Positions 2,991 through 31,000 of a stretch of DNA of 32,308 nt are shown here, piece by piece (the first letter of the stretch is position 1; the number at the start of each line of letters is the position of its first letter). The notes under the pieces are model-generated. The model worked only from the letters and a program-made list of their open reading frames with translations, did not search any database and was not told the DNA's origin. The DNA lies in NCBI GenBank assembly GCA_937858365.1, contig CALLYK010000390.1, forward strand, positions 1 through 32,308. The letters are read 5' to 3'. The position numbers and the translations under genes were made by a program. This DNA comes from an uncultured Isosphaeraceae bacterium (lineage in GTDB: Bacteria > Planctomycetota > Planctomycetia > Isosphaerales > Isosphaeraceae).

Positions 2991-5369
2991 ATGTTTCGCA
3001 AGCTGGCCGTCCTCCTTTCGGCGCTCGCGTTCACCACGGTCTCAGCCGCCTTGCTCGCCGAGGTCCCGCAGATCAACGGCCTGGGCTCGGCGGGCCTGCA
3101 ACGTGGGGTCGCCAACAACCTGACCATCAGCGGCGCTAACCTGAAGGGACACACGCGCGTCATCTCCCCCTTCGCACTCACCGCCGAGTACGACGAGACA
3201 GATGCCGGTAACCTCAAGGTCAAGCTCACGCCCGCCGCCGACACACCCGTCGGTGTTTATCCCCTGCGCGTCCGCACGGACGACGGCCTCTCGAACCCCC
3301 TTCTCGTCGCCGTCGGCCAGGTGCCCGAGGTCGTCGAAGTCGAAGAAAACACCACGTTCGACAAGGCCCAGGTCATCCCGCCCTTGTGCGCGGTCAGCGG
3401 CCAGTGCCCAGGGAACGATGTCGATTACTTCAAGTTCCCCGGCAAGAAGGGCCTGAAGATCGTGATCGACGCCCAATGCGCGCGCCTCGGTTCGGGCCTC
3501 GACCCGCAAGTGCGCCTGACCACCGCCGGCCGCGCCTTCGTGGCCTCGGCCGACGACACCGCAGGCCTGCAAACCGACGCCCGCCTCTTCGCCGTCTTGC
3601 CCGAAGACGGTGATTATGTGATTGAAATCTCCGACTCGAAATATCAAGGGAACAACAAGCCGTTCTATCACTTGCTCGTTGGGCCGATACCGACCGCCGA
3701 GGAGGTCTTCCCGCCTGGCGGACAGCGCGGTCACGTGATCGCCGCGCGTCTGAGCGGGGGCAACTTGTTGGTGGCCGCCACGCAAACGGCCAAGCTCGAT
3801 GCTCTGCCGGGCACCGACGTCGTCCATCCCCGCTTCTCCGGCCGGATCTTCGCCGGCCCAGGGCCCGAGGCGAACCTGGACGTGGAACTACCAGCTCCCC
3901 TCGTCGTGGGCGACCTACCCGAGATCGTTGAGCCCCCCGAACCGCCCGCCGACAGCAAGGACAAAGACGCCCCGATTCTGGTCGGGACCCCGATCGTCAT
4001 CAACGGCCGGCTCGACCATCCCAACGAGAGCGATCGCTATGTCGTGAGCGTCAGCCCTGGTCAGAAGCTGCGCGTGACCTTGCGAGCCGCCGAGATCGGC
4101 TCGGCCCTCGACCCTCAAATCCAGGTCCTCGGGCCCAACAACGCGGTGATCGTCTCGGCCGATGATTCGCCCTTGCCGATCTACCCCAACGTGCGCAAGA
4201 AGGCCGCCGCCAAGAAGGCGGAGTTCCAGTCCCCCGACGCGACCGTTGAAGTGACCGTGCCCGCCGGGGCCAACGAGATCACCGTCGTCGTGCGCGACCT
4301 GGAGGGACGCGGCGGCGTCGGCTACACTTATCGGCTCGCCATCGTCCCTTCGTCGCCGTCTTATGAACTTTGGCTTGATGAGTCGGAGATCAACCTCGCC
4401 AAGGGGTCTTCGATCAATGTGTATGTGACCGCCGATCGCGCCGGGTACAACGGGCCAATCACGCTGAGCGTGACCAACCCACCGGCCGGTCTGACCGTTC
4501 GTGGAGCCACGATTCCCGAGGGTCAAGCGGTCGGCCTCGTGACCCTCGCTGCCGCGGACGACGCCAACTTCGACATCGCCGACCTCAAGGTCCAGGGAGA
4601 AGGCAAGGGCCCGGAAGGCCCCATCGTGCGGACCGCCCGCAAGGCCTTGGTCTTCGGCACGCAATTGACGCCGCCAGGGAAGGTCGCCGTCCAAGCGGCC
4701 TTGCCCACGGCGCTCGTCGGCCCGGCGCCGATCGCCTTGAACGCCCCCGCCGAGCCGGTCGAAATCGCCCACGGAGGCGAGGCGAACGTGCCCGTGAAAG
4801 TGAAGCGAGGGGAAGGGGCCGATGCCGGCCTGGGGCTGGCACCTCTCACGGCGCTGCCCAAGGGGGTCACGATCGCCGAGGCGAAGGTGGCCGACAAGGC
4901 CGACGAAGGGAAGGCCGCCTTCAAGGCCGACGCCGACGCGCCCCTCGGTCCGCTCGTGGTCGGTCTGGAGGCGAAAGGGAAAGTTGCCGGCAAAGACAGG
5001 ACCTACGACGTTCCCTGGATCACGCTGCAAGTGGTGCGACCAATCACGGTGGAAATGGTCACGCCTTCCCTCGCGGTCCAGCCGGGGGCCACGGTTGAAC
5101 TCAAGGGAAAGATCGTCCGCAAAGGGGGCTTCAAGGACCCGGTGACGATCAAGGTCGACGGCCTGCCCAAGGGGCTCAAGGCCGACCCGGTGACCCTGGA
5201 AGGGGAGGCCGTCGAGTTCGCCCTCAAGGTCGTCGCCGAGGCCGACGCCGCCGATGCCAAGGCCGACGCCAAAGTCGCACCCGCTTTCCAAATCAACAAG
5301 AAAGACTACGCCACACCGCCGACCGCAGTCTCCGTGCAGGTCGAGAAGAAGTCGGCCCCCCCTCAATGA
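2991..5369 (+). CDS. Exported PPC-domain protein (planctomycete type)
   Basis: This 792-residue protein starts with a signal peptide (about residues 1-23, MFRKLAVLLSALAFTTVSA). An IPT/Ig-like beta domain (about 25-105, GANLKGHTRV) follows. Two pre-peptidase C-terminal (PPC) domains follow: one around 135-230 (NDVDYFKFPGKKGLKIVIDA, LPEDGDYVIEISD) and one around 335-460 (INGRLDHPNESDRYVV). The second half is a series of Ig-like beta modules (AGYNGPITLSV, RKGGFKDPVTIKV) ending in an Ala/Lys/Asp-rich tail. No peptidase or other catalytic domain is present, so it is probably a periplasmic or surface binding protein. It overlaps the next gene by an ATGA, indicating translational coupling with the cytochrome-WD40 protein. 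In planctomycetes this pair often travels with DUF1549/DUF1553 proteins; such a gene lies nearby on the opposite strand. The site before the ATG is G-rich but not a clear Shine-Dalgarno. Confidence 0.9.
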   Translation: MFRKLAVLLSALAFTTVSAALLAEVPQINGLGSAGLQRGVANNLTISGANLKGHTRVISPFALTAEYDETDAGNLKVKLTPAADTPVGVYPLRVRTDDGLSNPLLVAVGQVPEVVEVEENTTFDKAQVIPPLCAVSGQCPGNDVDYFKFPGKKGLKIVIDAQCARLGSGLDPQVRLTTAGRAFVASADDTAGLQTDARLFAVLPEDGDYVIEISDSKYQGNNKPFYHLLVGPIPTAEEVFPPGGQRGHVIAARLSGGNLLVAATQTAKLDALPGTDVVHPRFSGRIFAGPGPEANLDVELPAPLVVGDLPEIVEPPEPPADSKDKDAPILVGTPIVINGRLDHPNESDRYVVSVSPGQKLRVTLRAAEIGSALDPQIQVLGPNNAVIVSADDSPLPIYPNVRKKAAAKKAEFQSPDATVEVTVPAGANEITVVVRDLEGRGGVGYTYRLAIVPSSPSYELWLDESEINLAKGSSINVYVTADRAGYNGPITLSVTNPPAGLTVRGATIPEGQAVGLVTLAAADDANFDIADLKVQGEGKGPEGPIVRTARKALVFGTQLTPPGKVAVQAALPTALVGPAPIALNAPAEPVEIAHGGEANVPVKVKRGEGADAGLGLAPLTALPKGVTIAEAKVADKADEGKAAFKADADAPLGPLVVGLEAKGKVAGKDRTYDVPWITLQVVRPITVEMVTPSLAVQPGATVELKGKIVRKGGFKDPVTIKVDGLPKGLKADPVTLEGEAVEFALKVVAEADAADAKADAKVAPAFQINKKDYATPPTAVSVQVEKKSAPPQ

Positions 5370-5371
5370 GC

Positions 5372-5378
5372 AGAAGGG
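5372..5378 (+). promoter_or_regulatory. Ribosome binding site deciding the start of the cytochrome-WD40 gene
   Basis: AGAAGGG ends 8 nt before the ATG at 5387. That ATG gives a clean signal peptide (MLRQTLVILALAV). The earlier ATG at 5366 would add MSRRDHT, would contain this site within its own coding sequence, and has no obvious site of its own. Confidence 0.55.
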
Positions 5379-5386
5379 ACCACACG

Positions 5387-6784
5387 ATGCTTCGTCAAAC
5401 GCTCGTCATCCTGGCGTTGGCCGTCTCGTCCATACCACTCGCCGCTCGGGCCGACGACCCGCCCGCGCCCACCCCGGCGGCCGGCACGGTCAGTTTCATG
5501 AAGGACGTGGCCCCCATCCTCGTCCAGAACTGCATTGCCTGTCATAACCCGAAAAAGAATGAAAGCAAGTATGTGATGACCACGTTCGTCCAGCTGGCCA
5601 AAGGGGGCCAACAGGGCGAGGGGATGACGCTCGAACCGGGCGACCCGGACTCCAGCTACTTCGTCGAACTGCTCCGACCCGACGGCGCGCCCCGGATGCC
5701 CTGGAAGCTCGACCCGCTGCCCGCCCAGCAAATCGCCCTCATTGAGACATGGGTCAAGGAAGGAGCCAAATATGATGGGAAAGACCCGGGCGAAGACTGG
5801 GTCACGCTACTGAACAAGACCCGCGTCGTGACCGTGCCCGAGACCTATCCCGCCCCCATGCCCATCACGGCCCTTGCCTTCACCCCTGATGGCTCTTCCG
5901 TGGTCTCGTCGGGTTATCATGAGATCAATGTTTGGAAGCGGGAAGGAAGCGAGCCGCCCCGCCGGGTGCGCGGACCGCGTGAGCGGACCTACGATGTGGT
6001 CTTCAGTCCGAACGGCCAGTGGCTGGGGGTGGCGAGCGGCGACCCCGGCCAGTTCGGCAAGGCGACCCTCTTCAAGACGACACCCAACGGCGAGGCCAAC
6101 GAACCGCGCGAACTGGTCGAATCGGCCGACGTCGTCTTCGCGGTGGCATTCAGTCCCGACAGCAAGAAGGTGGCCGTGGGCGGGGCCGATCGAGCGATCC
6201 GCGTCTTCGAGGTCGAGACGGCCAAGCTCTTGCTTACGATCGAGGACCACGCCGATTGGGTGCTCGACCTGGCCTTCAGCCCCGATGGCACCAAGCTCGC
6301 GAGCGCCGGTCGCGACAAGACGAGCAAGGTCTTCGATGTCGAGAAGAAGGAGAGCCTGGTGACCTTCCCCGGCCATGCGGAGACCGTTTACGCAGTGGCC
6401 TGGTCGCCCGACGGCAAGACGATCGCGACGGCCGGCGGCGACAACCAAATTCGCCTCTGGGACCCCGCGAATGAGGCGAAGCAGACCCGAGCGATCGGCG
6501 GTTTCGGCGGTGCCGTCTTCCGGGTCTTCTACCATCCCGAGGGGAAGCAGCTCATCGCCTGCTCGGCCGACAAGTCGGTCCGGACGATCGACGCGAGCAA
6601 CGGAAACGTGATCAAGAAGATGGACGGCCACCAGGACTGGGTCTATAGCGTGTCCCTCTCGCCCGACGGGAAGACGTTGGCCTCGGGATCATGGGACGGA
6701 GAAGTCCGGCTCTGGGACGCGGCCGAAGGAAAACCCCTGGGGACGATCCTGGCCGCGCCCGGCCTGAAGGTCGCGGGCAAGTAG
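5387..6784 (+). CDS. Planctomycete cytochrome c / WD40-repeat beta-propeller protein
   Basis: This is a protein of about 465 residues from the preferred ATG at 5387 (472 from 5366). Residues 1-21 are a signal peptide ending in ARA. A cytochrome c-like domain follows (SFMKDVAPILVQNCIACH; C49, C52, H53), with the usual GDPDSSYFVELLRPDG and an R-M-P-W segment. Residues about 158-460 form a propeller of roughly seven WD40 blades, with recurring SPDGK/SPDSK turns and blade ends such as IRLWD and VRLWD. The fusion suggests an exported heme protein with a protein-interaction scaffold. It is coupled to the PPC gene upstream through an ATGA overlap, so the two products are probably made in balanced amounts. 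The family is well known in planctomycetes; its reaction is not established. Confidence 0.92.
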   Translation: MLRQTLVILALAVSSIPLAARADDPPAPTPAAGTVSFMKDVAPILVQNCIACHNPKKNESKYVMTTFVQLAKGGQQGEGMTLEPGDPDSSYFVELLRPDGAPRMPWKLDPLPAQQIALIETWVKEGAKYDGKDPGEDWVTLLNKTRVVTVPETYPAPMPITALAFTPDGSSVVSSGYHEINVWKREGSEPPRRVRGPRERTYDVVFSPNGQWLGVASGDPGQFGKATLFKTTPNGEANEPRELVESADVVFAVAFSPDSKKVAVGGADRAIRVFEVETAKLLLTIEDHADWVLDLAFSPDGTKLASAGRDKTSKVFDVEKKESLVTFPGHAETVYAVAWSPDGKTIATAGGDNQIRLWDPANEAKQTRAIGGFGGAVFRVFYHPEGKQLIACSADKSVRTIDASNGNVIKKMDGHQDWVYSVSLSPDGKTLASGSWDGEVRLWDAAEGKPLGTILAAPGLKVAGK

Positions 6785-7640
6785 GCCGATCGCTTTATCC
6801 GCTTCCTCGAACGAGCTTGGCACTGCGGTCATCGCGGTCGATGTGCCGCAAGAGATCGTGCGGATGGCGGGCCTTTGGGCCGACGCCACGCGGCTTCGTC
6901 GGGTCAACCGAGCAGTTGCTCCCGGCCAGCGTGGGGAACGATGTGAAATTCGAGCGGATTGGGGATCGACGAGCTTATCATTGGACCGAAGGCGAGGAAA
7001 TCCAGGAGGCCCCCGCGCCTCTTTCGCCTAACGCCTTCCGGACGGTCCTGGCGAGTCTCCTCGCGCGATGCGACCAGGGGTCTCATGGGCCCGTCTCTCC
7101 TTACAGCGGCGAGAGTGACTTCTTCTTGGGACCATCTGAAGTCCTTCGGCAAATTCACGAACACGACCCAGGTCGAAGAACCAGTGCTGTGGACTCGACC
7201 GTTGCCGAGGCCGAACACCCTCAGGAATGGGCCAGGAATCACTTTCCAATTCCAAGCGGGCTTGAGGGTGGCCCGGGTAGTTCCATAAGAGTATGACTTT
7301 GCCGAACATGAACTTTATATTCTTGTATAATTTCACAAATAATTTTAAAATATTGTGTGAAATTTTATTATATATTAGAAACAAAAAATATTTTATTTTA
7401 CAAATAAATAACATATAAAAATTAAACAATCGTATAATTTTCAAAGATCTAAGAAGCAGGCTTTGATCTTTCGCCGCCCAAGTGGGGCCAACGTGGGCCC
7501 CAGCGTCGCGTCGGGCAGCCGGGAGGGCGGGTCTGGTGTCGGGTCGTCCTCTGAAAGATCTCGGGAGGATGCCAGCCGCTTGAAATCCTCGCCCCTCTCG
7601 GCGAACCTGGCGCTTATCACCGGACCGAGAGGGACGAGTC
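6785..7640. other. 856-bp gene-free region with an AT-rich island
   Basis: From 6785 to about 7290 the sequence is GC-rich but no frame on either strand shows a recognisable domain, so it may be decayed coding sequence or spacer. From about 7290 to 7450 composition switches abruptly to mostly A and T, unlike anything else in the window. From about 7450 to 7640 it returns to GC-rich and leads to the ThuA gene. The island includes a near-palindrome at 7329-7364. No tRNA, integrase or transposase remnant was identified. Confidence 0.55.
7329..7364. repeat. AT-rich near-palindrome
   Basis: Arms AATTTCACA (7329-7337) and TGTGAAATT (7356-7364) are perfect inverted repeats. Pairing continues through most of the 18-nt centre; 15 of 18 symmetric positions are complementary. 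It lies in the AT-rich island. It could be an extended protein-binding site or the remains of a mobile element end. Confidence 0.5.
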
Positions 7641-8588
7641 ATGTCGATCGTTTCGGGCATCCGTGGGACAGCCTTGGCGGGACTCACTTTTCTGCTCGCC
7701 CTCACCCCTTCGTTCGGGAGCGGGCCGATCGCGGGGAAGCGCGTGGTGATTGTCTCGGGGCCTTCCCAGCACCCGCCCGGCACACACGAATCGGCCGCCG
7801 GGGCGCGCGTCTTGCGCTCGTTGCTCGCGGGCGTTGACGGCTTCGCGCCCGATGGGGTCACGATCCTTGAGGAGTGGCCGGCCGATTCGACCTTTCTGAA
7901 CGAGGCCGACGTGTTGGTCTTCGTCGGCGACGTATTCCCTGGTGAGACCCTCAAAGACCCGGCGCGCGTGAAGGCGGACGTCGCCCGACAAGTGGCCCGC
8001 GGTTGCGGAGTGGTCTGCCTGCACTACGCCACGGGCCTGCGCGCGGCCAACGTCCCGGAAAATGGCGAGCACCCGTTGCTGCACTGGATCGGCGGCTATT
8101 TCGCCAGCAACTGCCCGCACCACAAGTCGGTCGCGCGGGTGGTCACGGCCACGCTCACGCCCGAGCCGAACGAGCATCCCGTCCTGCGCGGTTGGAAGGC
8201 GTTCACCTGCGAGGACGAGCCCTATTGGAACAACTATTTCGGCCCCAACGGCATGGCGCCGAACGTGCAATCTCTGGTGACTGCGATGCTCCCGCCCGAG
8301 GGGCCCAAGAAAGAAACGATCTGTTGGGCCATCGAGCGGGCCGACGGCGGTCGTGGTTTGGGCCTGGTCATGCCCCACTTTTATCGCAACTGGCGCGATG
8401 ACGACCTGCGCACACTGATCGTCAACGCGGTCGCCTGGGCCGCGAAACTGGAAGTGCCCGCGGACGGCATCAAGACCCCCCGACCCGACCTCGCCCGCTT
8501 TGGTCCCGGGTCGGTCGAGCCCCAGCCCCCGCAACCTCCCGCCGAGAAGAAGACTGAGAAGAAGAAGAAGGCCCAGCCCCAACGTTGA
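7641..8588 (+). CDS. ThuA-like domain protein, exported
   Basis: This 315-residue protein has a signal peptide-like N-terminus (about 1-27, GTALAGLTFLLALTPSFGSG). A ThuA-like domain, which has a class I glutamine amidotransferase-like fold, follows at about 32-275. Recognisable segments are KRVVIVSGPSQHPPGTHE, EADVLVFVGD, GCGVVCLHYATG, the PNEHPVLRG turn, and PHFYRNWRDDDLRTLIVNAV near the domain end. ThuA proteins are linked to trehalose or other sugar utilisation, and exported versions are numerous in planctomycetes; the specific substrate is unknown. The tail after residue 280 is Pro-rich and ends in Lys-rich low-complexity sequence. GAGAGGG ends 7 nt before the ATG. A 9-bp hairpin begins 2 nt after the stop. 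Confidence 0.9.
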   Translation: MSIVSGIRGTALAGLTFLLALTPSFGSGPIAGKRVVIVSGPSQHPPGTHESAAGARVLRSLLAGVDGFAPDGVTILEEWPADSTFLNEADVLVFVGDVFPGETLKDPARVKADVARQVARGCGVVCLHYATGLRAANVPENGEHPLLHWIGGYFASNCPHHKSVARVVTATLTPEPNEHPVLRGWKAFTCEDEPYWNNYFGPNGMAPNVQSLVTAMLPPEGPKKETICWAIERADGGRGLGLVMPHFYRNWRDDDLRTLIVNAVAWAAKLEVPADGIKTPRPDLARFGPGSVEPQPPQPPAEKKTEKKKKAQPQR

Positions 8589-8590
8589 CA

Positions 8591-8614
8591 GGTCGCGTCT
8601 TCGGCGACGCGACC
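8591..8614 (+). terminator. Hairpin directly after the ThuA gene
   Basis: GGTCGCGTC (8591-8599) and GACGCGACC (8606-8614) form a perfect 9-bp stem around the loop TTCGGC, starting 2 nt after the ThuA stop. There is no T run behind it, so it is either a non-canonical terminator or a 3'-end stabilising hairpin. Confidence 0.45.
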
Positions 8615-8642
8615 GCGATCGTCCCTTTCCGATGACGGCCCC

Positions 8643-9377
8643 ATGCGTCGGATTGAATCATGCGTGGTCTGGGCGCTCGCCGCCTTGGCCCAGTTCGTGT
8701 TCGGGTCCCCCGGCTTGGCGGACGACGGCCCCACATTGAGGGTCCTTCAGGAGGACCACCCCAGGGCGTACTATTTCCGGAGCTCTAAGGCCCTCGCCCG
8801 GCAGGGCCGCGTTTCCTACGAGGACTGGGAGTCTTGCTTCAGTCGCCTGATGGGCGTTTGCGGCAAGGCCATCGATGAAGGAAACCCCCGGAAACCTCGG
8901 GCGCTGCGGCACCTTCTTCACGCGATCCAAGAAGGACCATCCCGAGAACTCGCACTCCTGCACTACAACGGCAACGCCCGCGACCCGCGTCACGATGCGC
9001 AGGACTTCTTCGCCGGGCATTGGCTCTATTTCAATGGGGCCACCGTTCTCAGCGACGTCCCCGCCGAGGAAGGAGAGACAGACTTGCGCGTGGAGGACCC
9101 GTGCCGCTTCCGAATGAACATGTGACGATACAAGGAGTCGAACGACGAGATCGGCCTCTGTCTTCTCGGTGACGAGGGCAAGCCCGACTGGCGTCAGAGC
9201 GAGCAAGTTCGACTCGTCGGTGTGGACGTCTCGAATCGGACGATTCGCGTCCAGCGTGGCTACCTGGGCACGAAGCCGCGCGCCCTGGGATACTCCACCT
9301 CCTCGGCCTCTTGCTCCCCAATCCTGAATCAGAACAGTTCGTGCCGGGGTCCATTCAGTCGTGGTCCCCGAGGGTAA
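8643..9377 (+). pseudogene. Decayed gene for an exported protein, interrupted by in-frame TGA
   Basis: The first 160 codons (8643-9125) encode a signal peptide (ALAALAQFVFGSPGLA) and a soluble region with ALLHYNGNARDPRHD and FFAGHWLYFNGA. The frame stops at TGA 9123-9125. The same frame then continues for 83 codons with protein-like content: RYKESNDEIGLCLLGDEGKP, then DVSNRTIRVQRGYLGTKPRA with mostly G/C third positions, before turning into unlikely sequence and ending at TAA 9375-9377. The simplest reading is a GGA (Gly) to TGA change at 9123, followed by loss of the C-terminal part. I do not recognise the family by name; the style is that of large exported planctomycete proteins. The first 160 codons could still yield a short product. 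Confidence 0.7.
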
Positions 9378-13064: not shown

Positions 13065-16000
13065 ATGTCCTGGTTGAATCGCGGCGGCATGCGGAAGCGG
13101 GACAAGTTTCAGCGGACAGTGCGAGTCGGCAAGGTGCCGTCGGGACTTCGCCGTCAATTCCGGCCTGACACGTTCCTCTCGCCGCTCGAGTCGCGGACCT
13201 TGCTCGCGACCTTCACGGTGGTCAACACGGGAGACAACGGCGGCATCAATCCGCTGCCCCTGGCGGGCACGGGCACGTTCCGTCAGGCGATCGTGGACGC
13301 CAACTCCACGGTGGGGGCCGACACGATCCAATTCGCGATCGGCGGCGGCCTGCAGACGATCGTGCTCAATTCGGCTTTGCCAAGTCTGTCGGAGTCGGTG
13401 ATCATTTCGGGGCCCGGGACTTCCAGCCTGGCGATCGACGGCAACAACGCGTATCGGGCCTTCAGCGTCTCATCCGGAGTCAGTGCGGTCATCACGGGAA
13501 TGACCCTCCAGAATTCCAATGTCGGGACTGCCGATGCCTTCGCAAGTTACGGGGGCGCGGTACGCAATTCCGGTTCGCTCGCACTGAGCCAGGTCGTTCT
13601 CTCAGGCAACAGGGCAGCCCGCGGCGGTGCCGTCTACAACGAAGGCACGTTGACGGTCGATCAGAGCACCCTGACACTAAACAACGCGGCGATTACGGGT
13701 GGCGCGTTGGATAACTATGGATCTGGGACGGCCAACACTTCGATTTCCAATTCGACAATCAACAACAACACCGCATCGTACGGCGGAGGTGTCGGAAACG
13801 ACAATGGTAACTCAGGTGTTGTGTCCTTGACGAATGTGACGGTTCACGGAAACACGGCAACCGGCAATGGCGGTGGCCTGGTTGGAAATCGGTTTTCCTT
13901 GCTGAACAGCACGGTCACCGCGAATAGCTCGCCTTGGGGCGGGGGCATTCTTGTTGGTCAGGTACTGGACCTCAACAACTCGATCGTCGCGGGCAATTCG
14001 GCAACGACCGCCAACGACGTGGGTGTTGCAGGGGGAACCGCCGCTGGTTCCTTCAATCTGATCGGCGACAACTCCGGTTCCGCCGCCTTTTTCACCAATG
14101 GAGTCAACGGAAATCTGGTTGGGACTTTGGCAAGTCCCCTCGACGCCCGACTTGGCCCCTTAGCACTCAACTTTGGGACCACGAAGTCGGTTGCTTTGCT
14201 TTTTGGAAGTCCCGCGATTGATGCGGGAAACAGCGGGTTGGCTCCCGCCTCGGACCAGCGCGGTGTGGCACGCGTGGGGACGGCGGACATCGGGGCCTTC
14301 GAAACGGATCGGAACTACTTCCTGGTCGCCAACGTCAACGACACGGGCGCGAAATCTCTCCGCAAGGGCCTCAGCGACGCCAATTCGACGACGAACCTGG
14401 CGGCCGGCCCTGATGTGATTCAATTCGGCGTGGGTACCGGGTTGCAGAACATCGCACCCCTGTCGGCCCTGCCCAACATCACCGATTCGGTGATGATCGA
14501 TGCCACGACCCAGCCCGGCTACGCGGGCACACCACTGATCCAACTCGACGGCGTGAACATCGCGGCTGCGACGGACGGGCTCTCCATCAACACGAACAAC
14601 TCGGTGGTGAAGGGGCTGGCGATCGGCCGGTGGAGCTTCGCCGGGATCATCATCAACGGCAGCAACAACAGGGTCCAGGGGAACTACATCGGCCTGGCGG
14701 CCGACGGGACGACGGTCCGGGCCAACACGAGCGGCGGCGTCTGGGTCTACTCAGGCAACAACAACGTGATCGGCGTCGACGGCGACGGCACCAATGACAC
14801 CGCCGAGGGGAACGTCATCAGCGGCAACACGTCCGCGGGTGTTTATCTGCAAGGAAGCGACAGCGCGAACGTGATCGCGGGCAACATCATCGGTCTGAAC
14901 GCGGCGGGCACGGCGACCGCCGGCACGCAGCAGTTCGGCGTCTGGATGTTCGACGGCTCGGTCGTGGGCACGCGGGTCGGCACCAACGGCGACGGCGTGA
15001 GCGACACCCTGGAACGGAACGTCATCTCGGGGAACACGAACTACGGCATTCGGATCGACGGCGCCCCCAACTCGGTGATCGCGGGGAACCTGATCGGCAC
15101 GAACGCGGCCGGCACGGCGGTGATCAGCGGCGGCCAGGCCGGCATCAGCCTGGGGACCGGCACGCAAGGGACCCGCGTCGGCACCAACGCCGACGGCACG
15201 GCCGACACGCTGGAGCGGAACGTGATCGTCGGCGGTCTGGCCAACGTCACGGGGGCCAGCTTCGGCATTCTGATCTCGGGCGCAGGCACGACGGGCAACA
15301 AGGTCGCGGGCAACTACATTGGTGTCGGTCCTGATGGGACGACGGCGATGCCGAATGGGGAGGGCGTATGGATCGAGCAGGGCGCCACGGACAACACGAT
15401 TGGCGGCACCACGGCGGCCGACCGCAACATCATCAGCGGCAACGGCGGCGGCGTGCTCATCCGCGGGACTGGTACGGACAACAACCTCGTCCAGGGGAAC
15501 TTCATCGGTCTGAACGCCTCCGGGACCGAGCCGATCATCGGTCAGGTCGGATGGTACAAGGGTAACGAAAGCAGCTTAGACGCGACCACGAGTGGGCAAA
15601 TAGGTAAGATATCCGACGATACGTTACTCCTGTTTGCTGATGGAAAAGTCGGCAGGTGTTTGAGCTTCAATGGTTCCGGCCCACTCTACACGTCGCGTAC
15701 CGTGTCCTACGCCACCGGCGCTAGCTTCGACATGTGGATCCAGACGTCGAGCCCAGCGGGCACTCTGACGGCTGATGGCGGCCAGGGGACCGATCGGGGC
15801 ATGGGTCTGTTCGTCGAGGGGGGCAACCTCGTCCTGAGCGGCAGCTACGGGACCGGCACGCCGAACTTCACGATCACGGGCCCGGCCGTCGCCGATGGCC
15901 TATTCCATCACGTGGCCGCGACCTGGACGGGCAACACCACCGCCAACGGCGTGAAGCTCTACCTCGACGGCGTGCTCGTGGGGCAGGCGACGGCCGTTTC

Positions 16001-19000
16001 GGCGATCGCCACTGGGGGCAACACATTCGCGATGGGCGGACACAATTCGCTTCCGTATTCACCATTCACGGGCCTCCTGGATGAGGTCGGCATCTTCAAT
16101 CGGCCCCTCACGGGGGCCGAGGTGGCCTCGATTTTCAATGCCGGCAGCCAGGGCAAGGGACTGGGCAATGATACTGGCGTCCAGCTCGACTCAGGGGCCA
16201 CCGGCAACACGATAGGTGGTGCCACGGCCGCGGCCCGAAACGTCATCTCGGGGAACAAGGACGCCGGCGTGGTAATCGATTCATTCACGACCGGGAATGT
16301 CATCGCGGGAAACTTCATTGGCACCGACGCGGCCGGCACGGCCGTCGTGGGCAATGAGCAAGGTGTGTACAGCATTGGCACAAGCAACACAATCGGCGGC
16401 CTGACCGACACCCCCGGCATGGCCCCCGGCAACCTGATCAGCGGAAACGGGGTCAATGTCTGGCTTTTCGGGACGGCGGACGTCGTCGCGGGGAACCTGA
16501 TCGGCACCGACCTCTCCGGGACGATCGGCTTTTGGAGCAATCGTCAGGGCTACGGCGTGAGCATCAACGCAGGCGTGAACAACACGATCGGCGGTCTGAG
16601 TACCCAGGCGCGGAACGTCATCAGCGGCCAAGACGTGGGGATCACGCTGTACGTGGGGGCCAGCGGCAACGTCGTGCAGGGCAACTTCATTGGCACGGAT
16701 TCGGCGGGAACGAGTGCGGTTGCCAACGGTACGGGTGTCTGGTTTCTATCTGATGCCTCGAACAACACGATCGGCGGGTCGACCGCGACCTTCGGCACCG
16801 GCGCGGGGAACGTGATCTCGGGCAACACGACAGGGGTGCTGGTCCAAGACTCGGGTACGACGGGCAACAAGGTCCAGGGGAACATCATCGGGGCCAACGC
16901 GGCGGGCACGGGCGCGGTCGCCAATGATCGCGGCGTCCTTTTCGACGTCGGCACGTCGGGCAACCTCATCGGCACCGACGGCGACGGCACCAACGACGCC
17001 ACCGAAGGCAACCTCATCAGCGGTAACACGGGTGCTTTCGGCTACGGGGTGCATTTTTCCCAGAGCAGCAATAACGTCCTCGCGGGCAACTTGATCGGCA
17101 CGAGACTGGGCGGCGCGATCGCCTTGCCGAACACGTTCGGCGTGGTGGTCAACTTCAGCTCGACCAACAACCGCATCGGCACGAACGCCGACGGCACCAG
17201 CGACACGTTCGAGCGGAACACCATCAGCGGCAACTCGAACGCCGGCATCTGGGTCGCGGCCTCGTCGGCCACGAAGATCGCGGGCAACTACATCGGTGCG
17301 GACTCGTCGGGGCTGTCGGCGGTCCCGAACACGACGTACGGCGTCCTTCTCAATTCCGGAGCGTCGAACAACACCATCGGCGGCGTGACCTCGGTCGCTC
17401 GTAACGTCATCAGCGGCAATACCGGCTCGGGCGTCTCGATCACGGGCGCCTCGACCACGAACAACCTGGTGGCCGGCAATTTCATCGGCGTAGACCAAGG
17501 AGGGAACACTCAGCTCGCCAACGGCGGCTACGGCGTGATCATCTCCGCGTCGGGGGTGGTGTCCAACACGATCGGCGGCCTGACCGGCACCGTTGGCAAC
17601 CCCGCTCCCGGCACGGCCCCGGGCAACGTCATCAGCGGCAACACGAGCTACCAGATCTGGCTCGCCTCGTCGGGCCAGACGGTGCAGGGCAACATCATCG
17701 GCCTCGGGGCAGACGGCTCCACCGCGATCGGCGCGTCGTCGGCCGGGCTGGGCGACTCGGGCATCAACAACAGCCTGATCGGCGGTAATGACGCTCGGGC
17801 GCGAAACGTCATCGGCGGCCTCACGACCCCCATGTACCTCGGGGCCGGCTCGGGCACGCAAGTCCTGAACAACTACATCGGCACCGACGTCGGCGGCACG
17901 CTGAATCGGGGCGGTCAATCCTACTTCTACGGCACCACCAACATCGCCTTCGGCGCGGCCGGGGCGGGGAACGTCTGGGTCGGGAGCAGCGGCACCGGCT
18001 ACACCATCCGGGGCTACGGCGACGGCTGGTCGTTCAAGGGGAACCGCTTCGGCACCACGGCCGACGGCACGGCCCCGCTCCTCGGCTTCTCGGGCGTCAT
18101 CAACACGCAGGGGAACAACGTCACCGTCGGCGGCACCGCGGCCGGCGAGGGGAACCAGTTCGCCGACTCGCTCGCCATCCGGAACGGCACGAACGCCACG
18201 GTCCTCGGCAACACCTTCGGCCTGAACGCCGCCGGCAACGCGGTCCTGACGGGCTCGACCGCGTCCCTGGCCTTCTACCGGTTCGGCTCCGCGACGGTCG
18301 GCGACGGCACGGCCGCCGGCCGGAACGTCTTCGCCAGCGCGAGCTCCTATGCCGTCGTGGACGAGGGATTCGGCGCCGACGGGAGTTCGATCCGGGGCAA
18401 CTATTTCGGCACCAACACCGCCGGCACCGCCACCCTCGGCTCGCTCCAGTACGGCGTCTGGGTCGAGGCCTCGGCCACGAACACGACGGTCGACGGCAAC
18501 GTCGTCGGCAAGGCGTCCGTCGCGGGCGTCTTCATCGACGGCAACCACACCCCGTTCGCCCTCCCCGACACGGGTGTCGCCTGGTTCAAGGCGGAAGGGA
18601 ACTTCGCCAACATCGCCGACTACCAGACGTCCGGCGCGGCGTTCGGCACGGTCTCCTTCGGTAGTGGAGTGGCCGGCGGCCAGGCGTTCCAGTTCAGCCG
18701 GACCACGCCCGGCTACGTCCGGTCCGAGCACGCGGCCAGCTACACGCTCAACGCCACGGCGGTGACGGTCGAGGGCTGGGTCAACCCAGCGAGCCTGCCG
18801 ACCGCCGGCCAGGAATACTATATCGGCAGCAACAACGCCGCGAGCGACCCGAACTACGCGCTGTTCCTGACCAACACCGGAGTCAACGTCCGGCTTGGTT
18901 TCCGATATCACACCACCACCGGCTCGCAGACCGCCACCAGCGCCGCGCTTCCCTTCGGCACCGGCGCCTTCCACCACGTCGCGGTCACGGCCGACGGGAC

Positions 19001-22000
19001 GAATGTCAAGTTCTACGTCGACGGCAGCCTGTTCGACTCGGTGGCCGTGGTCGGCACGCCGACGACCTACGGCACCAATAACGCCGGCGACCCGAACATC
19101 CAGCTCTTTATCGGCGGCGGCAACTCGGGCGCCTTGACGTTCGACGGCAAGGTCGACGAGTTGGCCGTTTACAACCGCGCCCTCACCGCCGCCGAAATCA
19201 ACCGGATCTTCACCATCGGCGGTGCCGACAAGGGCGGAAGCTGGACGCGCAACACGACGATCACCGGCAACATCATCGGCCTGCTCGCCGACGGCACGAC
19301 CGCCGGCGCAGTCACCGGCGACGGCATCCGCATCGACAACAGCGAGTCGAACACGATCGGCGGCACGACCGTCGCGGCCCGCAACGTCATCGCCAAGGCC
19401 GGCGGCGACGGCATCAAGCTCCTCAATAAGTACGCCCGCTTCAACGTCATCAGCGGCAACTACATCGGCACCGACGCCACGGGCGCCAACGACCGGGGCA
19501 ATACCAGCTACGGCGTCGAGTTCACCACCAGCGCCGCCGGCAACACCATCGGCGGGCTGACGGCCACTCCCGGCACGGGCGCGGGCAACGTCATCAGCGG
19601 CAACGACGCCGGCGGCATCCACCTGCTGACCGCCAACAACACGGTGCAGGGCAACATCGTCGGCCTGACCGCCGCCGGCACGGCCAAGCTCGCCAACACC
19701 GGCCACGGCGTCCACGTGCAGGACGACGGCAACATCATCGGCGGCACGGCGGCCGGGGCGGGCAACGTCCTCAGCGGCAACACCCAAGACGGAGTCTATT
19801 TCGGCGGCGTCCTCACAAGCCTGACGGTGCAGGGGAACTTCATCGGCACCGACGTGACCGGGACCGCGGCGCTGGGCAACTCCAACGACGGCGTCGAGGT
19901 CGTCAACTCCAGCGGCGCCCTGATCGGCGGCCCGACGGCGTCGGCCCGCAACGTCATCTCCGGCAACGGCGTGATGGGGGTGCGCATCGCCGGCAACCTC
20001 CGCAACGGCAACACGGTGCAGGGGAACTACATCGGCACCGACGTGACCGGCGCCGTTGCCCTGGGGAATGCCCAATACGGCATCCAGGTCCTCAACAACT
20101 CGAACAACGTCGTCGCCGGGAACGTCGTCAGCGGAACGACGGGCGCCGGCTCCATCGGCATCGACATCATCGCGACTGCCGGCAGCATGACCGGGAACGT
20201 CGTGCTCGGCAACTTCGTCGGCACCAACGCCGGCGGGACGGCCGCGCTGCCGAATGCCAATGTCGGCATCTACGTCGAGACCACCGGCAGCGGCACGCTG
20301 ACGAACACGACCATCGGAGGCACCACGGCGGCCGACCGCAACATCATCAGCGGCAACGCCGGCAACGGCGTGCAGATCTCGGGCGCAGGCACAACGGGCA
20401 CGCTGGTCGAGGGCAACTACATCGGCACGAACGCCTCGGGCGCCGAGCCGATCGGCGGCCAGGTCGGCTGGTACAAGGGGGAGCTCAACGAGTACGACGC
20501 GACCACCAATGCGCGAATCGGCTCCTATTCCACGACGTCCGTCTCTTTCGTCACCGCCAAGGTGGGCAGCGGCTTCAACTTCAACGGCACCGGCCCGGTC
20601 GCCACGTCGCGGACCGTTTCCTATGCCACGGGCGCGAGCTTCGACCTTTGGTTCCGGACGTCCAGCGCCTCGGGCACCCTGGCGGCCGATGGGGGCGTCG
20701 GCACGAATCGCGGCATGGGCCTATTCGTCGAAGGGGGCAACCTCGTCCTTCGCGGCAGCGATGGCACCGGCACCCCCAACTTCACGATCATCGGTCCGGC
20801 CGTCGCCAACGGCCTTTTCCACCACGTCGCCGCGACCTGGACGGGTGACACTTCCGCCAACGGCGTGAAGCTCTATCTCGACGGCGTCCTCGTGGGCCAG
20901 GCGACGGCCCTGTCGGCGATCGCCACCGGGGCGAACTCGTTCGCGATGGGCGGACACGGCACGCTGCCGTACCCGCTGTTCACGGGCGTCTTGGATGAGG
21001 TCGGCCTCTTCAATCGGCCCCTCTCGGGGCCCGAAGCGGCCGCGATCTTCAGCGCCGGCGGCCAGGGCAAGGGCCTGGGCAATCGCGGCGTCGGCGTGAA
21101 GCTCGACTCGGGCGCCACGGGCAACACGATCGGCGGCACCACGGCGTCGGCCCGCAACGTCATCTCGGGGAACGCCCAGGACGGCGTGCGGATCGCCGGG
21201 ATGACGGCCAGCGGGAACGTTGTCGCGGGGAACTTCATCGGCACCGACGCGGCCGGCACGGCCGTCGTGGGCAATGACCGCTGGGGCGTCTCCAGCGACG
21301 GCTCGAACAACACGATCGGCGGCCTCACCGCCACCCCCGGCACGGCCCCGGGGAACGTGATCAGCGGCAACCCGATCAACGTCCAACTCAGCGGGACGGC
21401 GGACGTCGCGGCGGGCAACCTGATCGGCACCGACCTCACCGGCACGATCGGCCTCTGGGGCGGTCGCCAGGGGTCCGGGGTGAGCATCGCGGGCGTGAAC
21501 AACACGGTCGGCGGTCTCAGCACCCAGGCGCGGAACGTCATCAGCGGGAACGGCACGGGGATCGGCATCGGCGGCGTGGGCGTCAGCGGCAACGCCTACC
21601 TCAACAACTACATCGGCACCGACATCACCGGCGCGGTGGGCCTGGGCAACGGCGGCTACGGGGCCTACTTCTACAACACCGGGGCGAACAACACGTTCGG
21701 CCTGCCGGGCGCGGGCAACGTGCTGGCGGCGAGCGGCTCCTACGGGATGCTCGTCGCCTTTTCTCCCAACCTCACCATCCAGGGGAACAAGATCGGCACC
21801 AACGAAGCGGGCACCGCCGCGCTGCCGAACAATCCCTACGGCCTGGTGCTGACCTACGTCGACGGCATTCAGATCGGCGGCACGGCGGCCGGGGCGGGGA
21901 ACCTCATCAGCGGCCACTCCGGTACGGCGATCGACCTCAGCTCATCGACGGGCGCCACCATCCAGGGGAACAAGATCGGCACCGACGTGACGGGCACCGT

Positions 22001-25000
22001 CAGCCTGGGCGGCGGAGGGGGCATCTCCCTCTCTCGATACACCACGGGCGCGACGATCGGCGGCACCACGGCCGCGGCCAGGAACATCATCAGCGGGCTC
22101 TCCGCCCAAGGGATCGTCTTCAGTGGCCACGGCAACGAGAACAACGTCGTCATTGGGAACTACATCGGCGTGGCGGCCGACGGCGCAACCGCCATGCCCA
22201 ACAACTCCTACGCGGGCGTTTATGTTTCGGGCTCGGCCCGCGACAACACGATCGGCGGCACGGCCCCTGGCGCGAAGAACGTCATCAGCGGCAACAACAC
22301 CGACGGCGTCAAGATCGACGGCACGGGATTGCCCGATTACACGCCCGCCTACTACAAGGCCGACGGCAACACTCAGAACACGGCCGCCACACCGGTTGGC
22401 TCGGCGACTATTCTTGGCGGCGTCACGTACGGGCCCGGCAAGACCGGTCAGGGGTGGCGGTTCACGAATACGGTCGGCCAGCGGGTGACGCTGCCCAACA
22501 CCGCCGGTTACCTATCGTTGACCACCGGCACTGTCCAATCTTGGATCAACCTGAACAGTCTGCCGGCCGCCGGTACGAGATTCGTCGTGGCCTCGCGGGG
22601 CTACTCAGCCGCGCCGGCGAGTGAGAACTTCGGGCTCTATGTAAACGAGAACGGCGGCCTAACGTTCCGCTGGCACAACCCGGCGATCGGCGGGGGAGGC
22701 TTCGGTCAAGCCGACTCGACGGCCGGCCTCCTGACGACGGGCACCTACCATCACGTCGCCGTCACGATCGACGGGATGTACGTCAAGTTCTTCATCGACG
22801 GCGCGGCGGCGGGCCAGTCCGTCATGGTCGCGCCACTCGTCGTCACGGCCACGGGCGACGTCGAGGTCGGCGGCCTGGCCAACGACCCGGCCACGCGGTT
22901 CGATGGTCTCATCGACGAGATGGCGATCGGTTGGTACCCGCTGGCTGCCGACGACATCGCGCGGATCTACGCGAACGCCGGCCAGGGGACCGACCTGGGC
23001 GGCAGCGGCACCACGGGCATCGTGGTGCAGGGGAACATCATCGGCCTGAACGCGTCCGGGACGAGCGCCGTGCCCAACACGGCCTCGGGCGTCTACATCA
23101 CGAAGTCGAGCGACAACACGATCGGCGGCACAGCGGCGGCCGTCACGCGGACGATCAGCGCGGGGGGCCTTCTCGGCACCGGGCGGGTGCCTCAGGGAAT
23201 CGTCACGGCCGCCAACGGCGATCTCTACGTTGGCTCGTACGACACCGGCAACCCGATCGGCAACGGGCAGGTCTTCCAGGTCAACCCCGTCACCGGCGCG
23301 CAATCGCCGGTCGCCTCGGGCGGCCCCTTGAACATCATCGGACCCATGGCGCTGGACGCCTCGGGCAAGCTGATCGTCGTCGACGTCGATACCTCGGGGC
23401 CTGTCTGGGTCTATCGCCTGGTGTCCATCGACCCGGCGGTCCCGGGCGGCAACCCGACCGTGCTGACCACGACCGGGGCCTCCTGGTCGAGCCTGTACGA
23501 CATTCAGCGCGAGCCCTCGGGGACCTTCGCGCTGGCCGACGGCGACGGCGGCAAGATCCTTCGCTTCGACGCCGCGACGGGAGTCGTGACGACGATCGCG
23601 TCGGGCCTGCTCGGCCCCACATCGCTGGCGATCGCCCCCGACGGCACGATCCATGCGGTCGACCGGCAGAACGGCGTGCCCAACAGCGCGCGGGTTCTGC
23701 GAGTCCATCCCGTCAGCGGGCAAGCGACCGTCACCAGCCAGGGCGGATACCTCTACGCGCCGGCCGCCCTCTTGCTCTCGCCGCGCGGGAGCCTCTACGT
23801 CGTCGACTACCAGAACACCGCCGGTTTCCCCGGCCGGGTTTACACGATCGACCCGTCCAACGGCGCGCAGGCCCTGGTGATCGAGAATGGCTTCGACCCG
23901 AATTACGTCACGATGGGGAGCACGGGCGACATCGTCTTCACCGACTACGCGGCCGGCTCGGTCTCCCAGCTCCTTCTCAACCCGGCGCGCAACATCATCA
24001 GCGGCAACGCGAGTCAGGGCGTCTGGATCGACGGGGCCGGCAGCACGGGAAACCGAGTCCAGGGTAACTTCGTCGGCATCAACGCCCTCGGCGCAAAGCC
24101 CATCGGCAACGGGGCGTTCGGCATCTCGATCACCAGCGGGGCGTCCGGGAACACGATCGGAGGCACGACCGCGGGGACCGGCAACGTCATCAGCGCCAGC
24201 GCCAACTTCGGCGTCTTCATCACGGGCGCTACCTCGGCTGGAAACCAGATCGAGGGGAACTTCCTCGGGACCGACGCGACCGGCGAACGGGACCAGGACG
24301 TGCTCGGTCAGTCGTTCGGGAACACCCATTGGGGCGTTTGGATCGAGGGGCCGAACAACACGGTCGGCGGGTCGGCGGCCGGGGCCGGGAACCTGATCTC
24401 GAACACGAGCGGACCGGGCACCGACCGCGGCGGCGTGGCCATCATCGGCGGCGACGCGAGCGGGAGCGTCGTCCAGGGGAACATCATCGGCCAGAACGCG
24501 GCCGGCACGCGGTCCCTCGGCACGGCCGGTGGGGCGGTCTGGGTGTCCGGCGCCGCGGACGTCACGATCGGCGGCGCCGCTTCCATCGACCCGACGACCC
24601 ACAAGTTGACCGGGGCCGGGAACCTCCTGTCGGGGATGGCCCCGAACGCCGGCTGGACCGTCTTATTCAACGACGCGCAGAACGCCGTCTTCCAGGGCAA
24701 CCTCGTCGGCCTCGATTCGACCGGGACCCAGCCGGTCGATTTGGCCTTCGTCAGTGTCGTGGTCCAGGGATCGTCCACGAATGCGCGCATCGGAGGCCCA
24801 TCGGCGGCGCTACGAAACGTCATTGCGAACACCGGGGTCGGCATCAAGATCAACCCGGGGAGTGACAACGCGCGCATCGAAGGGAACTACCTCGGCACGG
24901 ACGTGACCGGGACGAACGCGATCACTCCGGTCGGCGGAAACGTCAACGGCATCGAAATCGTGTCCGGTGTCGCGGGGACGACGATCGGCGGGTTGGCCAC

Positions 25001-28000
25001 CGGCGCCGGAAATTTGATCAGCGGTTGGGGTGTGGCCGGCGTCGTCGACGGCGGGGCGTCGGGGACCATCATCCTGGGCAACAGCATCGGCACGAACGTC
25101 ACCGGCGCAACGCCCATCCCGAACGTCACCGGCGTCAACCTGAGTGGGGCCTCCGACACCCGGATCGGCGTGGACGCGGGGGCCCGTGAGGTTCTCGCGT
25201 CGAACGCCTTGACTCGTGCGGGAGGTCTCGCCCGCGCCGGAGACGGCACCATCTTCTACGCGGACAACGATTTCTTCAGCCAGACAGCTTGGGTGTACCG
25301 ATTCGACCCGGCAACGGACCGCCTACGCACTCTTCTGGCCGGCTTCGCCTATCCGTTTCGACTCAACGGCCTCGCGTTGGACAACGCCGGGAGCCTGATT
25401 GTCGGCCTCATGAATGATGCGTCGGGGCTTGGCGGGTTGCTCCGCATGGACCCGACCACGGGCAACTACACGACGCTCTCACCCGTGGGCACGTTCGGTC
25501 CAATCGCCGCAATCTCGGTGGACCCCGTGAGCGGCGATTACTACTTGGCGGACCAGGACCCGAGCACGGGGAACGGCCGCGTCGTCCGGGTCGACCAGGC
25601 GACCGGCGCGATCGTCGGTCAGACCGAGGGCGGCAACTTCAACACGCCGTCCGACCCGAACGGAGTGCCCAGCGGTCTGACCTTCAACCAGAGCGGCCAG
25701 CTCTTCGTGTCGGCCTCGTCCGACCCCGGCGGCCCGCAGAGGATCGTCCGCATCGCCCCCGCCACCTTGACGCAGACGCTGGTCTTTCAGGACACCACGC
25801 TTGACCCCTTCGGCGCGATCGCCGCTCAGTCCGACGGAAAACTCCTGGTCGCCGCAGGCGCGGGCATCATCCGCGTGGACCAGGCGACGGGCGCCTGGAC
25901 GAACGTCTGCGACTTGAGCGATCCCCCGTTCATTCATCTTAGTGGTTTCGCGATCGAGTCGGACAACACCCTGATCGCGACCTTCAACGGCTTCATCGGC
26001 AGCGGGCGACTGGACCGAGTGGCCGTCCGGTCCGTCGGCAACCTGATTAGCGGAAACACCGGTGCCGGAGTGAGCGCCCAATACTCAAGCGGCGTCGTCC
26101 TCGCGAGCAACTTCATCGGCACCGACGCGGCCGGTGGCGCCGCGGTCCCGAACGGCGGCGTCGGCGTGGTCTTAGGTGTGGGCAATACGGGCTGGACGAT
26201 CGGCGGCGTTACGGCGGGCGCCCGGAACGTCATCAGCGGCAATGACGGCGGCGTCGCGATCACGCAATACGGTAACTCCTTCAACGTGATCGCGGGGAAC
26301 TATATCGGCACCGACGCCGCCGGTCTCCACGCCATCCCGAACGCTCGGGGCGTCGCGATCGACGGTCAGAACAACCCGAACAACACGATCGGCGGCGCGT
26401 CGGCCGGGGCCCGGAACCTGATCTCCGGCAACACCCGCTTCGGCGTCTGGCTGTACACGACGAGCAACCAGACCGTCATGGGCAACTGGGTCGGACTCGA
26501 CGCCACCGGAAACGCGGCCATCCCCAACCTGGAGCACGGCTTGCTCCTGTACGACGGGACCCACGATTGCAGCGTCATCGGCAATGTCATCAGCGGCAAC
26601 TCCAGCGGCCTCACGTTTATCTACAACGCTAACGCCAACGTCGTCCGCGGCAACCTTATCGGCACGAACTCCGCCGGCACGGCGGCCGTGCCCAACGTCG
26701 TCGGGATCTCGGTCGTCGAGGGCTCCGCGAACAACACGATCGGCGGTCTCACGCCGGCCGACCGGAACGTCATCAGCGGCAATACCGGCGTGGGGGTGGG
26801 CCTCGGCGGGGGCGACTACTACCCCGACGCGCCCAACAACCAGGTCCTAGGCAACTACATCGGGACGGACGTCACGGGGTCGCTCCCGCTGGGCAACGTC
26901 TTCGGCGTCAGAATCGACGCCAAGCCCTGGGGCGATGTCAACGGCAACGTGATCGGCGGGACGGACCCGGGCGCCGGGAACCTCATCAGCGGCAACACGA
27001 CGGGGATCGGCCTTTACGGCACGTCGACCTCGTATGTCAGCGGGGGCGGCATTCTCGGCAACTTCATCGGGACCGACGCGACGGGCTCACAGCGCGTGCC
27101 CAACGTGACTGGGATCGAAGTGGGCGACGGCCGCGTGAATGTGCCGATCGGCGGCACGGCCCCCGGTTCGCGCAACATCATCAGCGGCAATACCGGAAGC
27201 GGACTTTTCCTTTACGCGTCGCCCGGCCCGATCCGGGGGAACTCCATCGGCACGGACGTCACCGGCACGAAGGCCGTCCCGAACGCCGACGGCATCAGTA
27301 CCCTGAACGCCATCGGCGTGACGATCGGCGGCACTCAGCCCGGAGAGGGAAACCTGGTCTCGGGGAACTCTAGGGCCGGCCTCTATCTGAACGGCGCCTC
27401 GACGGCGTTCGTCGCCGGCAACGTCATCGGCCTGGATTCCACGGGGGCGAAGGCCTTGCCCAACCAGAGTCACGGCGTCGCGGCCTTCGGCGTCGGCGGC
27501 CAATACACGATCGGCGGCGGAGCGCCGGGTTCGCGCAACGTCATCTCGGGCAATCTCGGCTCGGGGATTGCGATGCAGGTCCTGGGCGGGTCGAGCGTCC
27601 TGATCTCGGGCAACTTGATCGGCACCGACACAGCGGGTCAGAAGGCGGTCGGCAACGCGGTCCAGGGGATCGACGTGGCCCCGAGCACCGGGACCATCAC
27701 GATCGGCGGCACCGGCCCGCTGGCCTTCAACGTCATCTCGGGGAACGCCCGGAACGGCATCGCGATCGCCTCGGGCAACGTCACGGTCCTCGGCAACCGG
27801 ATCGGGACCGACGCGACCGGCAGCTTTGAAATCGGCAATCTGGGCGACGGTGTCCATCTCACGGGGTCGGCTGCGGCCGGCGACCTGATCGGCGGGACGG
27901 CCCTCGGCGCCGGGAACTTGATCTCGGGCAACCTCGGCAACGGCATCAAGCTCGATGGCGCGAGCGGCGTGCTCATCCAGGGGAACTTCATCGGCACCGA

Positions 28001-31000
28001 CCTCAAGGGCATTAAGGCCCTGGGCAACCAGGCCCACGGCATCCACGCGTATTACTCGCCCAACAACACGATCGGCGGTCCGGCCGCCGGGGCGCGGAAC
28101 GTCCTCTCGGGCAACGGTTACGAAGGGATCGCGCTGGAGGGTCTGACGCCGACCGGTCTCTACACAAGCGCGGCCTCGGGTAACCGGGTCCAGGAGAACT
28201 ACGTCGGCACCGACGTCTCGGGCACGGCCGCGTTGCCGAATTCCGGCTTCGGCATTTACGTCCAGGCGCCTTCGAACACGCTCCTGGGGAACACGGTCGC
28301 GTTCAACGCCACGACGGGCATTAGAGTCGTGGGCGGCACGGGCAACCGGATCAGTCAAAACGCGATCTTCCGCAACCGGGGCCTCGGCATCGACCTGGGC
28401 AATCCCGGCGTGGGCGGCACCAGCGGCGTGAACAACGACCAACCCTTCCCCGTGATCTCCGGCTTCACCGTCAACGGCCCCAATGTGGTCGTCACCGGCG
28501 CGGTGACCGCGGCGCCCAACACGACCTACACCATCGAGCTGTTCAACCTCGACTCCCTCAACACGGCGACGATCTTCACTCAGAACGGGCTCATCTCCGC
28601 TTACGGGGAGGGGCGTTATTTCCTGGGCGCCACGAGCGTCACGACGGGGGGGGCGGGGGTCGGGGCCTTCAGCGTCACGCTGCCCTTGAACGGTCGCGCC
28701 GCACGCTTCCTCACGGCCACCGCGACCGACCCCTCCGGCAACACTTCCGAGTTCTCCCTCGACTATGGCATCAACCGCGCGCCGGTCGCGAAGGCCGGCC
28801 CCGACCGTACGGTGAACGAAGGGGCCGCCACGTTCCTCGACGCCCGCGCCTCGACCGACCCCGACGGCGACGCGCTCGCCTACACCTGGGACTTCGGCGA
28901 CGGCTCGCCGACTGTTACGGGCGCGACCCCCGTACATCGCTTCTATCTGCCCGTCGGCACGAACGAAACGTCGCACACCTACACCGCGACCTTGACCGTG
29001 AACGACGGCTTCGGCGGCGTGAGCACGGCGGTCACGCACGTGACCGTCCTCAACGTCGCCCCCGTGTTCATCGACCAGTCGTTCGGCCCACCCTCCGTGA
29101 TCGTGACGCCGGACACCCCCGCCGACGGCTTCGGCAACAGCGTCGCGGCCGTGGACGACAACATCGCCGTCGGGTCCGCCGCCTCGACCGTCGGCGCGCT
29201 GGCCGGCGCGGGCCTCGTCCGCCTTCATGATGCGACGGGCCTTCTCCTACGCGCGTTCCAATCGCCCGCCCCGGTCGCCAACGGCGCCTTCGGCACGTCG
29301 GTCGCGGCGGTCGGTAACAACCTGCTCATTGGCGAGCCGGGCGCCAACGGGACCGGCCTGGCCTATCTGTTCGACGCCAACCCCGACAGCCCGACCTTTG
29401 GCGCTTTGCTCAAGACCTTCGCCGACCCGACGCCCCAGCCGGGGGACCAGTTCGGCCTCGCCGTCGCCGCGCTCGGGACCAAGGTTCTAGTCGGCGCGCC
29501 CGCCGCCGGCATTCCCGCCACCCCGGGCCTGGGCCACGCCTATGTTTTCGAGGGCAACCCCAAGGCCCCCGACTTCGCCAATCCAGCGCCCCTGCTCACG
29601 CTCAGCGACCCGCTCCTGGCCCTCGGCACCCGCTTCGGCGCCTCGTTGGCCTCCGTCGGCGGCGACGTCCTCGTGGGCGCCCCCCGGGCGTCCGACGGCG
29701 TGGGCGCCGCCTACCGCTTCCGCGCTACCGACGGCGCCCCGCTCCAAGGCTACTTCAGCCCGACCGGAACCTTCGGCATTGCCTTCGGCCAGGCGGTCGC
29801 GGCCGTCGGCGAAAACGTCCTGATCGGCGCGCCGAACGAAGACGGCGGCGCCGGGGCGGCCTACCTCTTCGTCGGGGCCAACCCGGCCCCCTTGATGACC
29901 TTCGCCCAGCCCGATAATGGGGGCGGCCTCTTCGGTTACGCCGTCGCCGGCACGGGCACGACCGCCCTGATCGGCGCTCCCTTGGCCACGCTGGGCAAGG
30001 CGAGCGCGGGGGCCGCGTACCTCTTCGACGCAGACCCGGCCTCGCCCACCTTCGGCCTGCCCTTGACCTCCGTGCTGGGACGGACGCCGACCCCGGGCGA
30101 CCTCTTCGGCGCGGCCGTCGGCTTCAACAACCTCGACCTCCTCGTCGGCGCTGGGGTCAACGCCGCGCTGGCCCCCCAAGGCCAAGGCGCCGGCGCCGTG
30201 TACGACTTCCCGCAAGACGCGCCGGTGACGATCAGCTCGCCGGTGAGCTTCGTGATCGACCCGGCCCACGCCTCCGTCAACCTGAGCGGGACCTTCTTCG
30301 ACCCGGGGGTCGCCGAACCTCACACCGTGCGGGTCGACTGGGGCGACGGCTCGGCGTCGACGACCACCGTCGTCCCTGGCGGCGGCTACGCCTTCTTCGC
30401 CTCCCACGCCTATTTGCAGGACTCGGGCGACAAGCTGCCGATTACGATCACGGTGGACGACCGCCACGGCGGCCGGGCGACGTACACCCAACTCGTGCGC
30501 ATCAACCCCGTGCCCGTCACGATCAACCCGTTGCAGTTCTCGGCGAACCCGATCAACGAGAACGACACGGTGCAAGTCACGGGCGGCTTCGCCGACCCGA
30601 ACTCGACCAACCCCCACACGGCCGTGATCGACTGGGGCGACGGCACCGACCAAACGATCGTCCAGCTCGCCGCGGGCGTCTTCACGTTCCATGGCTCGCA
30701 CAAATACCTCGATGATTCGGCCGCTGGGCCGAGCTACTCGGTCGTGGTCACGGTGAGCGACAGTCAAGGAAAGATCGCCGCCCTGACCTCGCCGATCACC
30801 GTGCGCAACGTGTCTCCCGCGCCGACGTCGTTCAGCCTGGACCGGACCACGATCACCGAAGGGGGCGCCGTCAAGGTCACGGGCGCGTTCACCGACCTCG
30901 GCACGTTCGACACGCACACGGTCGGCATCGACTGGGGCGACGGCTCGCCGATCACGCCGCTCGTCCTGCCCCTGGGCGTGACGACTTACACGGCGTCGCA

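Follow-up and report, generated by a model that had tools for sequence, protein, structure and literature searches.

An AT-rich intergenic island abutting a remnant of an ISAzo13-type insertion sequence in an uncultured Isosphaeraceae bacterium

Results and Discussion

Organization of the locus

The window (the whole stretch of DNA analysed here, 32,308 nucleotides long, 66.0% GC, corresponding to contig C390) belongs to a draft assembly of 6,804,291 bases in 591 contigs, estimated to be 85% complete with 4.2% contamination. A gene for a WD40-repeat protein (5366-6784, plus strand) is followed, after a gap of 857 bp in which no gene was called, by a gene for a ThuA-domain protein (7641-8588, plus strand; PF06283, E 1.3e-12); the calls were made with our own codon model rather than an established gene finder. 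The gap is composite. Its left part (6785-7222), gene-free by the codon-based calls, had no match among plasmid or phage records. It is succeeded by the remnant of an insertion sequence (7223-7306), an AT-rich island (7305-7455) and, between the island and the ThuA gene, a GC-rich stretch (7456-7640).

A compositional outlier

The sequence-only reading of this DNA had pointed to about 160 bp of mostly A and T at positions 7290-7450, with abrupt boundaries and a 36-bp near-palindrome, and both the composition and the boundaries were borne out: A+T content across that interval is 83%, the maximal scoring AT segment spans positions 7305-7455 (151 bp, 86% A+T), and both of its edges are sharp. The score of this segment, 98.5, lies far outside what chance produces, as the maxima were 17-18 in random sequence of 62.4% GC, which is the measured intergenic composition of the genome (five runs of 1 Mb each), and 13.5-16.5 under a first-order Markov model (three runs). 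The island is therefore a true compositional outlier in a GC-rich window.

The near-palindrome (7329-7364) is also present, with 30 of its 36 positions symmetric (15 of 18 pairs), but it stays within what such a composition yields by chance. Equal symmetry arose in 33 of 1000 shuffles that preserved mononucleotide composition and in 20 of 300 that preserved dinucleotide composition, and 20 of 200 shuffles folded equally well as DNA (z -1.27). We accordingly rejected the palindrome as a specific site; its significance is weak, and we attach no function to it. Two further candidates were discarded as well, namely an RNA gene (Rfam gave nothing up to E 1 for positions 6700-8700) and a terminator, none being found in a search of the region. 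Sequence searches with the island itself were equally negative: neither the 44 other genomes sampled from the order, nor the 296 others sampled from the class, nor plasmid and phage records gave a match.

A remnant of an ISAzo13-type insertion sequence

Positions 7218-7306 were matched repeatedly in one relative from the same family, G008, when 40 genomes, including the genome under study, were searched at the DNA level. Thirteen places in G008 matched at about 75% identity, and comparison with the element found there gave 74.7% identity over positions 7220-7306 (87 bp, E 1.7e-11). The element is about 1325 bp long and is present in at least eight near-identical copies, seven of which share 98.3-99.8% identity with the eighth over 1322-1327 bp (eight were compared); it is thus recently active in that genome. 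Both of its ends carry AGGAATAGGCCGGG(A/G)ATAACTTCC, inverted relative to each other, and the transposase of one copy (L090) belongs to the ISAzo13 family (NF033519, E 3.1e-120; PF07592, E 1.6e-108).

The window retains one end of such an element, namely a terminus followed by the 3' end of the transposase gene on the minus strand (7223-7306). Positions 7223-7244 fit the terminal pattern of the G008 element with 0 mismatches and are its single copy in the window, while four other places in the same genome fit with 3 mismatches. The second terminus is absent from the window, so that we speak of a remnant and not of an element. Of the transposase gene, no more than the 3' end is recognizable, by its 74.7% DNA identity over 87 bp, the 79-aa frame at this position having no Pfam match. 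A PF07592 search of the genome under study was likewise blank, as it was for 14 of 14 control genomes, and is hence not to be read as evidence of absence. The rest of the element could not be traced in the window, including the GC-rich stretch at 7456-7640. In its terminus and transposase 3' end the remnant thus resembles the full-length ISAzo13-family element of G008, from which it differs in that only about 84 of some 1325 bp are left and in that the AT-rich island lies outside the known element.

The inner edge of the remnant coincides with the left edge of the island. Counted per ten bases, identity to the G008 element is 8 at positions 7298-7307 and then falls to 5, 4, 5, 4 and 3, which places the break of the element no more than about 2 bp from the beginning of the AT-rich segment. 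Another relative, G001, likewise has a solitary terminus of this kind (27 bases, 93% identity).

AT-rich islands elsewhere in the genome and in the family

The sequence-only reading had made the peculiarity of the island depend on similar AT-rich spacers being rare between the genes of this genome, and the outcome was mixed. A sample of 857,531 bases of the 6.8 Mb, with stretches of N dropped (26,932 bases in one contig set), contained 23 AT segments scoring at least 18, 18 of them mostly intergenic. The background rate, calculated without the window and two loci (L049, L050) that had been chosen because they bear islands, is 19 such islands in 806,223 bases, one of which scores 50 or more. 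Smaller islands therefore recur, but a density of 42 A/T in 45 bases is attained at only three places in the assembly, stretches of N aside: the island of the window, which is the strongest of the sample, and one island each on contigs C457 and C35. The C457 island (in the interval 1284-2225 of locus L050) is 68 bp long, has 90% A+T and is separated by 131 bp from the start of an IS1634 transposase fragment, whose match (E 5.3e-12) falls below the curated cut-off of the model. The C35 island has a nucleoside deoxyribosyltransferase-like gene on one side and on the other, directly after it, a GH99-like gene, an arrangement more suggestive of a promoter region. Of the 23 islands, 12 are situated in closed gaps, and these gaps are long (median 866 bp; 353 bp for random intergenic bases). 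The long gaps, whose median was equalled by 22 of 2000 random sets, favour debris.

Strong AT-rich patches were present in 19 of 41 genomes of the family, that under study included; G026 and G008, for example, both assembled in few contigs, are among them. Neither this set nor those used for the insertion-sequence and ThuA searches yielded another genome of the genus. We read 18 islands at 17 loci of these relatives and found that, as judged by reading, they adjoin gene starts and gene ends alike. The smaller islands of the genome and of the family share with that of the window their sharp AT-rich character and their location mostly between genes, yet the island of the window is the strongest of its own genome's sample and has no sequence in common with them: its best score against 22 other islands (the second island of locus L190 omitted) was reached by 138 of 200 shuffles. 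A common sequence family was therefore rejected. Two of the relatives' islands, in contrast, are related to each other (L180:3006-3117 in G026 and L186:3004-3134 in G008); both have long terminal inverted repeats around ACCACGAAT...ATTCGTGGT and, judging by these repeats, look like miniature inverted-repeat elements. In two further family genomes, G002 and G009, 511 and 277 overlapping AT-dense matches were counted, far above the other family genomes sampled.

No clear excess of transposase genes was detected beside the islands. Among the matches listed, transposases accounted for 2 of 39 genes flanking islands of the genome under study (both IS1634; 25 of 140 families listed), 1 of 30 genes flanking those of relatives (TnpB; 25 of 172) and none of 40 control proteins (25 of 160), a comparison that has little power with such partial coverage of the families; the 30 genes of relatives were taken from 34 distinct genes and the 40 controls from 78 proteins drawn. 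A literature search found no paper that mentions intergenic AT-rich islands in Planctomycetes.

Origin of the island

The island is probably non-functional AT-rich intergenic debris at the site of a decayed ISAzo13-type insertion sequence. An element of this type would once have inserted at the site and later been broken, with some 84 bp of one end surviving (7223-7306), and the 151-bp AT-rich segment would have come to occupy the site from the break onward, either as a foreign or mobile scrap that landed in the element or as filler joined during deletion of the remainder. The order of these events, a foreign origin of the segment and its absence of function are what we infer from the arrangement of the locus. 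In favour of debris we count the remnant and its coincident edge, the lone terminus in G001, the 857-bp gap devoid of genes, the lack of conservation at ThuA loci described below, the long gaps around the other islands of the genome and the position of the C457 island near an IS1634 fragment. Against it stand the failure to find a match to the island elsewhere, the lack of clear transposase enrichment, the position of the C35 island before a GH99-like gene, and an excess of promoter-like matches. Of the origins put forward in the sequence-only reading, that of a horizontally acquired scrap fits best, since the island lies in a long gene-free gap and abuts a broken ISAzo13-type end; this holds for the setting, but a source for the AT-rich segment was not found. 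As regards the nucleoid-protein or replication-type site also suggested there, the palindrome does not exceed chance, and neither does the similarity of the island to 22 others.

The main rival to debris is a lineage-specific regulatory region, that is, an AT-rich promoter or UP-element or a nucleoid-protein site driving or silencing the ThuA gene 186 bp downstream. Such a role would agree with the position of the island upstream of that gene, with the presence of the palindrome, within chance as it is, with the C35 island lying directly before a gene, and with four promoter-like matches in positions 6700-7800 (three of them on the plus strand) where 0.3 were expected, but matches to promoter consensus sequences come easily in AT-rich DNA and the relatives' islands, as judged by reading, adjoin starts and ends of genes alike. 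A regulatory role upstream of ThuA had also been proposed from the sequence alone, with the suggestion that the same island be sought at orthologous loci. We compared 30 loci of ThuA homologues (39-57% identity), found in Pirellulaceae, Gemmata and Verrucomicrobiota records, and an AT segment scoring above 13.5 occurred upstream of none of them (up to 801 bp inspected, one locus offering only 119 bases); nor did any of four further loci from relatives have a segment scoring 20 or more. The homologues found are distant, a search of 36 genomes from the family having detected none at E 1e-60. With no comparable island at any of these loci, a conserved element controlling ThuA is unlikely, leaving the proposal unsupported as far as a conserved feature is concerned, and even a lineage-specific one appears to us rather unlikely.

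Miniature inverted-repeat transposable elements (MITEs) are short, AT-rich and non-coding, have paired terminal repeats and occur in several copies per genome. The island of the window is similarly short, AT-rich, non-coding and palindromic and adjoins the terminus of a transposon, and the mutually related islands of G026 and G008, with their long terminal inverted repeats, would lend such a reading some support. The island of the window differs, however, in that no terminal inverted repeats pairing its two ends were found, in that its own assembly holds no second copy (only 16-base chance matches), and in that it is no more related to the 22 other islands than chance would have it. That it is a MITE we regard as distinctly improbable.

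A further possibility is an ISAzo13-like transposase gene, diverged and AT-rich, whose 3' part would continue as the AT-rich segment. Two weak hints point in this direction: the frame of the transposase remnant (7028-7954, minus strand) is open through the island, as happened in 16 of 2000 shuffles (62 of 2000 for any of the six frames), and its translation weakly resembles an ISAzo13 transposase, to a degree reached by 16 of 1000 shuffles. Neither was confirmed by profile and genome searches: Pfam yielded nothing up to E 10, plasmids and the 296 other genomes sampled from the class contained no match, and the best-scoring protein alignment does not keep register with the remnant; the continuation of the frame was therefore rejected as largely refuted and is scarcely plausible. 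A false join of unrelated DNA during assembly, which a contaminated draft of 591 contigs and the singleton nature of the island could suggest, is very unlikely, because comparable islands in relatives assembled into 1 to 6 contigs (G008, G011, G026, G061) indicate that the family does contain islands of this kind.

Debris at a decayed insertion sequence is an ordinary explanation, under which mobile DNA in decay can account for a striking compositional feature with no need to invoke regulation. That mostly unrelated AT-rich islands recur across a GC-rich family nevertheless raises a minor question as to their origin and the persistence of their AT bias. One could imagine that these sharp intergenic islands of about 45-190 bp are the recurrent product of a single process in the family rather than separate foreign captures, for example of AT-biased or non-templated fill-in during the repair of broken insertion sequences, a speculative idea to which we give very little credence.

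Downstream of the ThuA gene, our gene calls place one uninterrupted frame of about 19 kb (13065-32306, plus strand; some 6,400 codons) that reaches the end of the window. Laminin_G_3 and beta-helix domains are present in its first 3,312 residues, and its product is predicted from these domains to be a giant surface-type protein.
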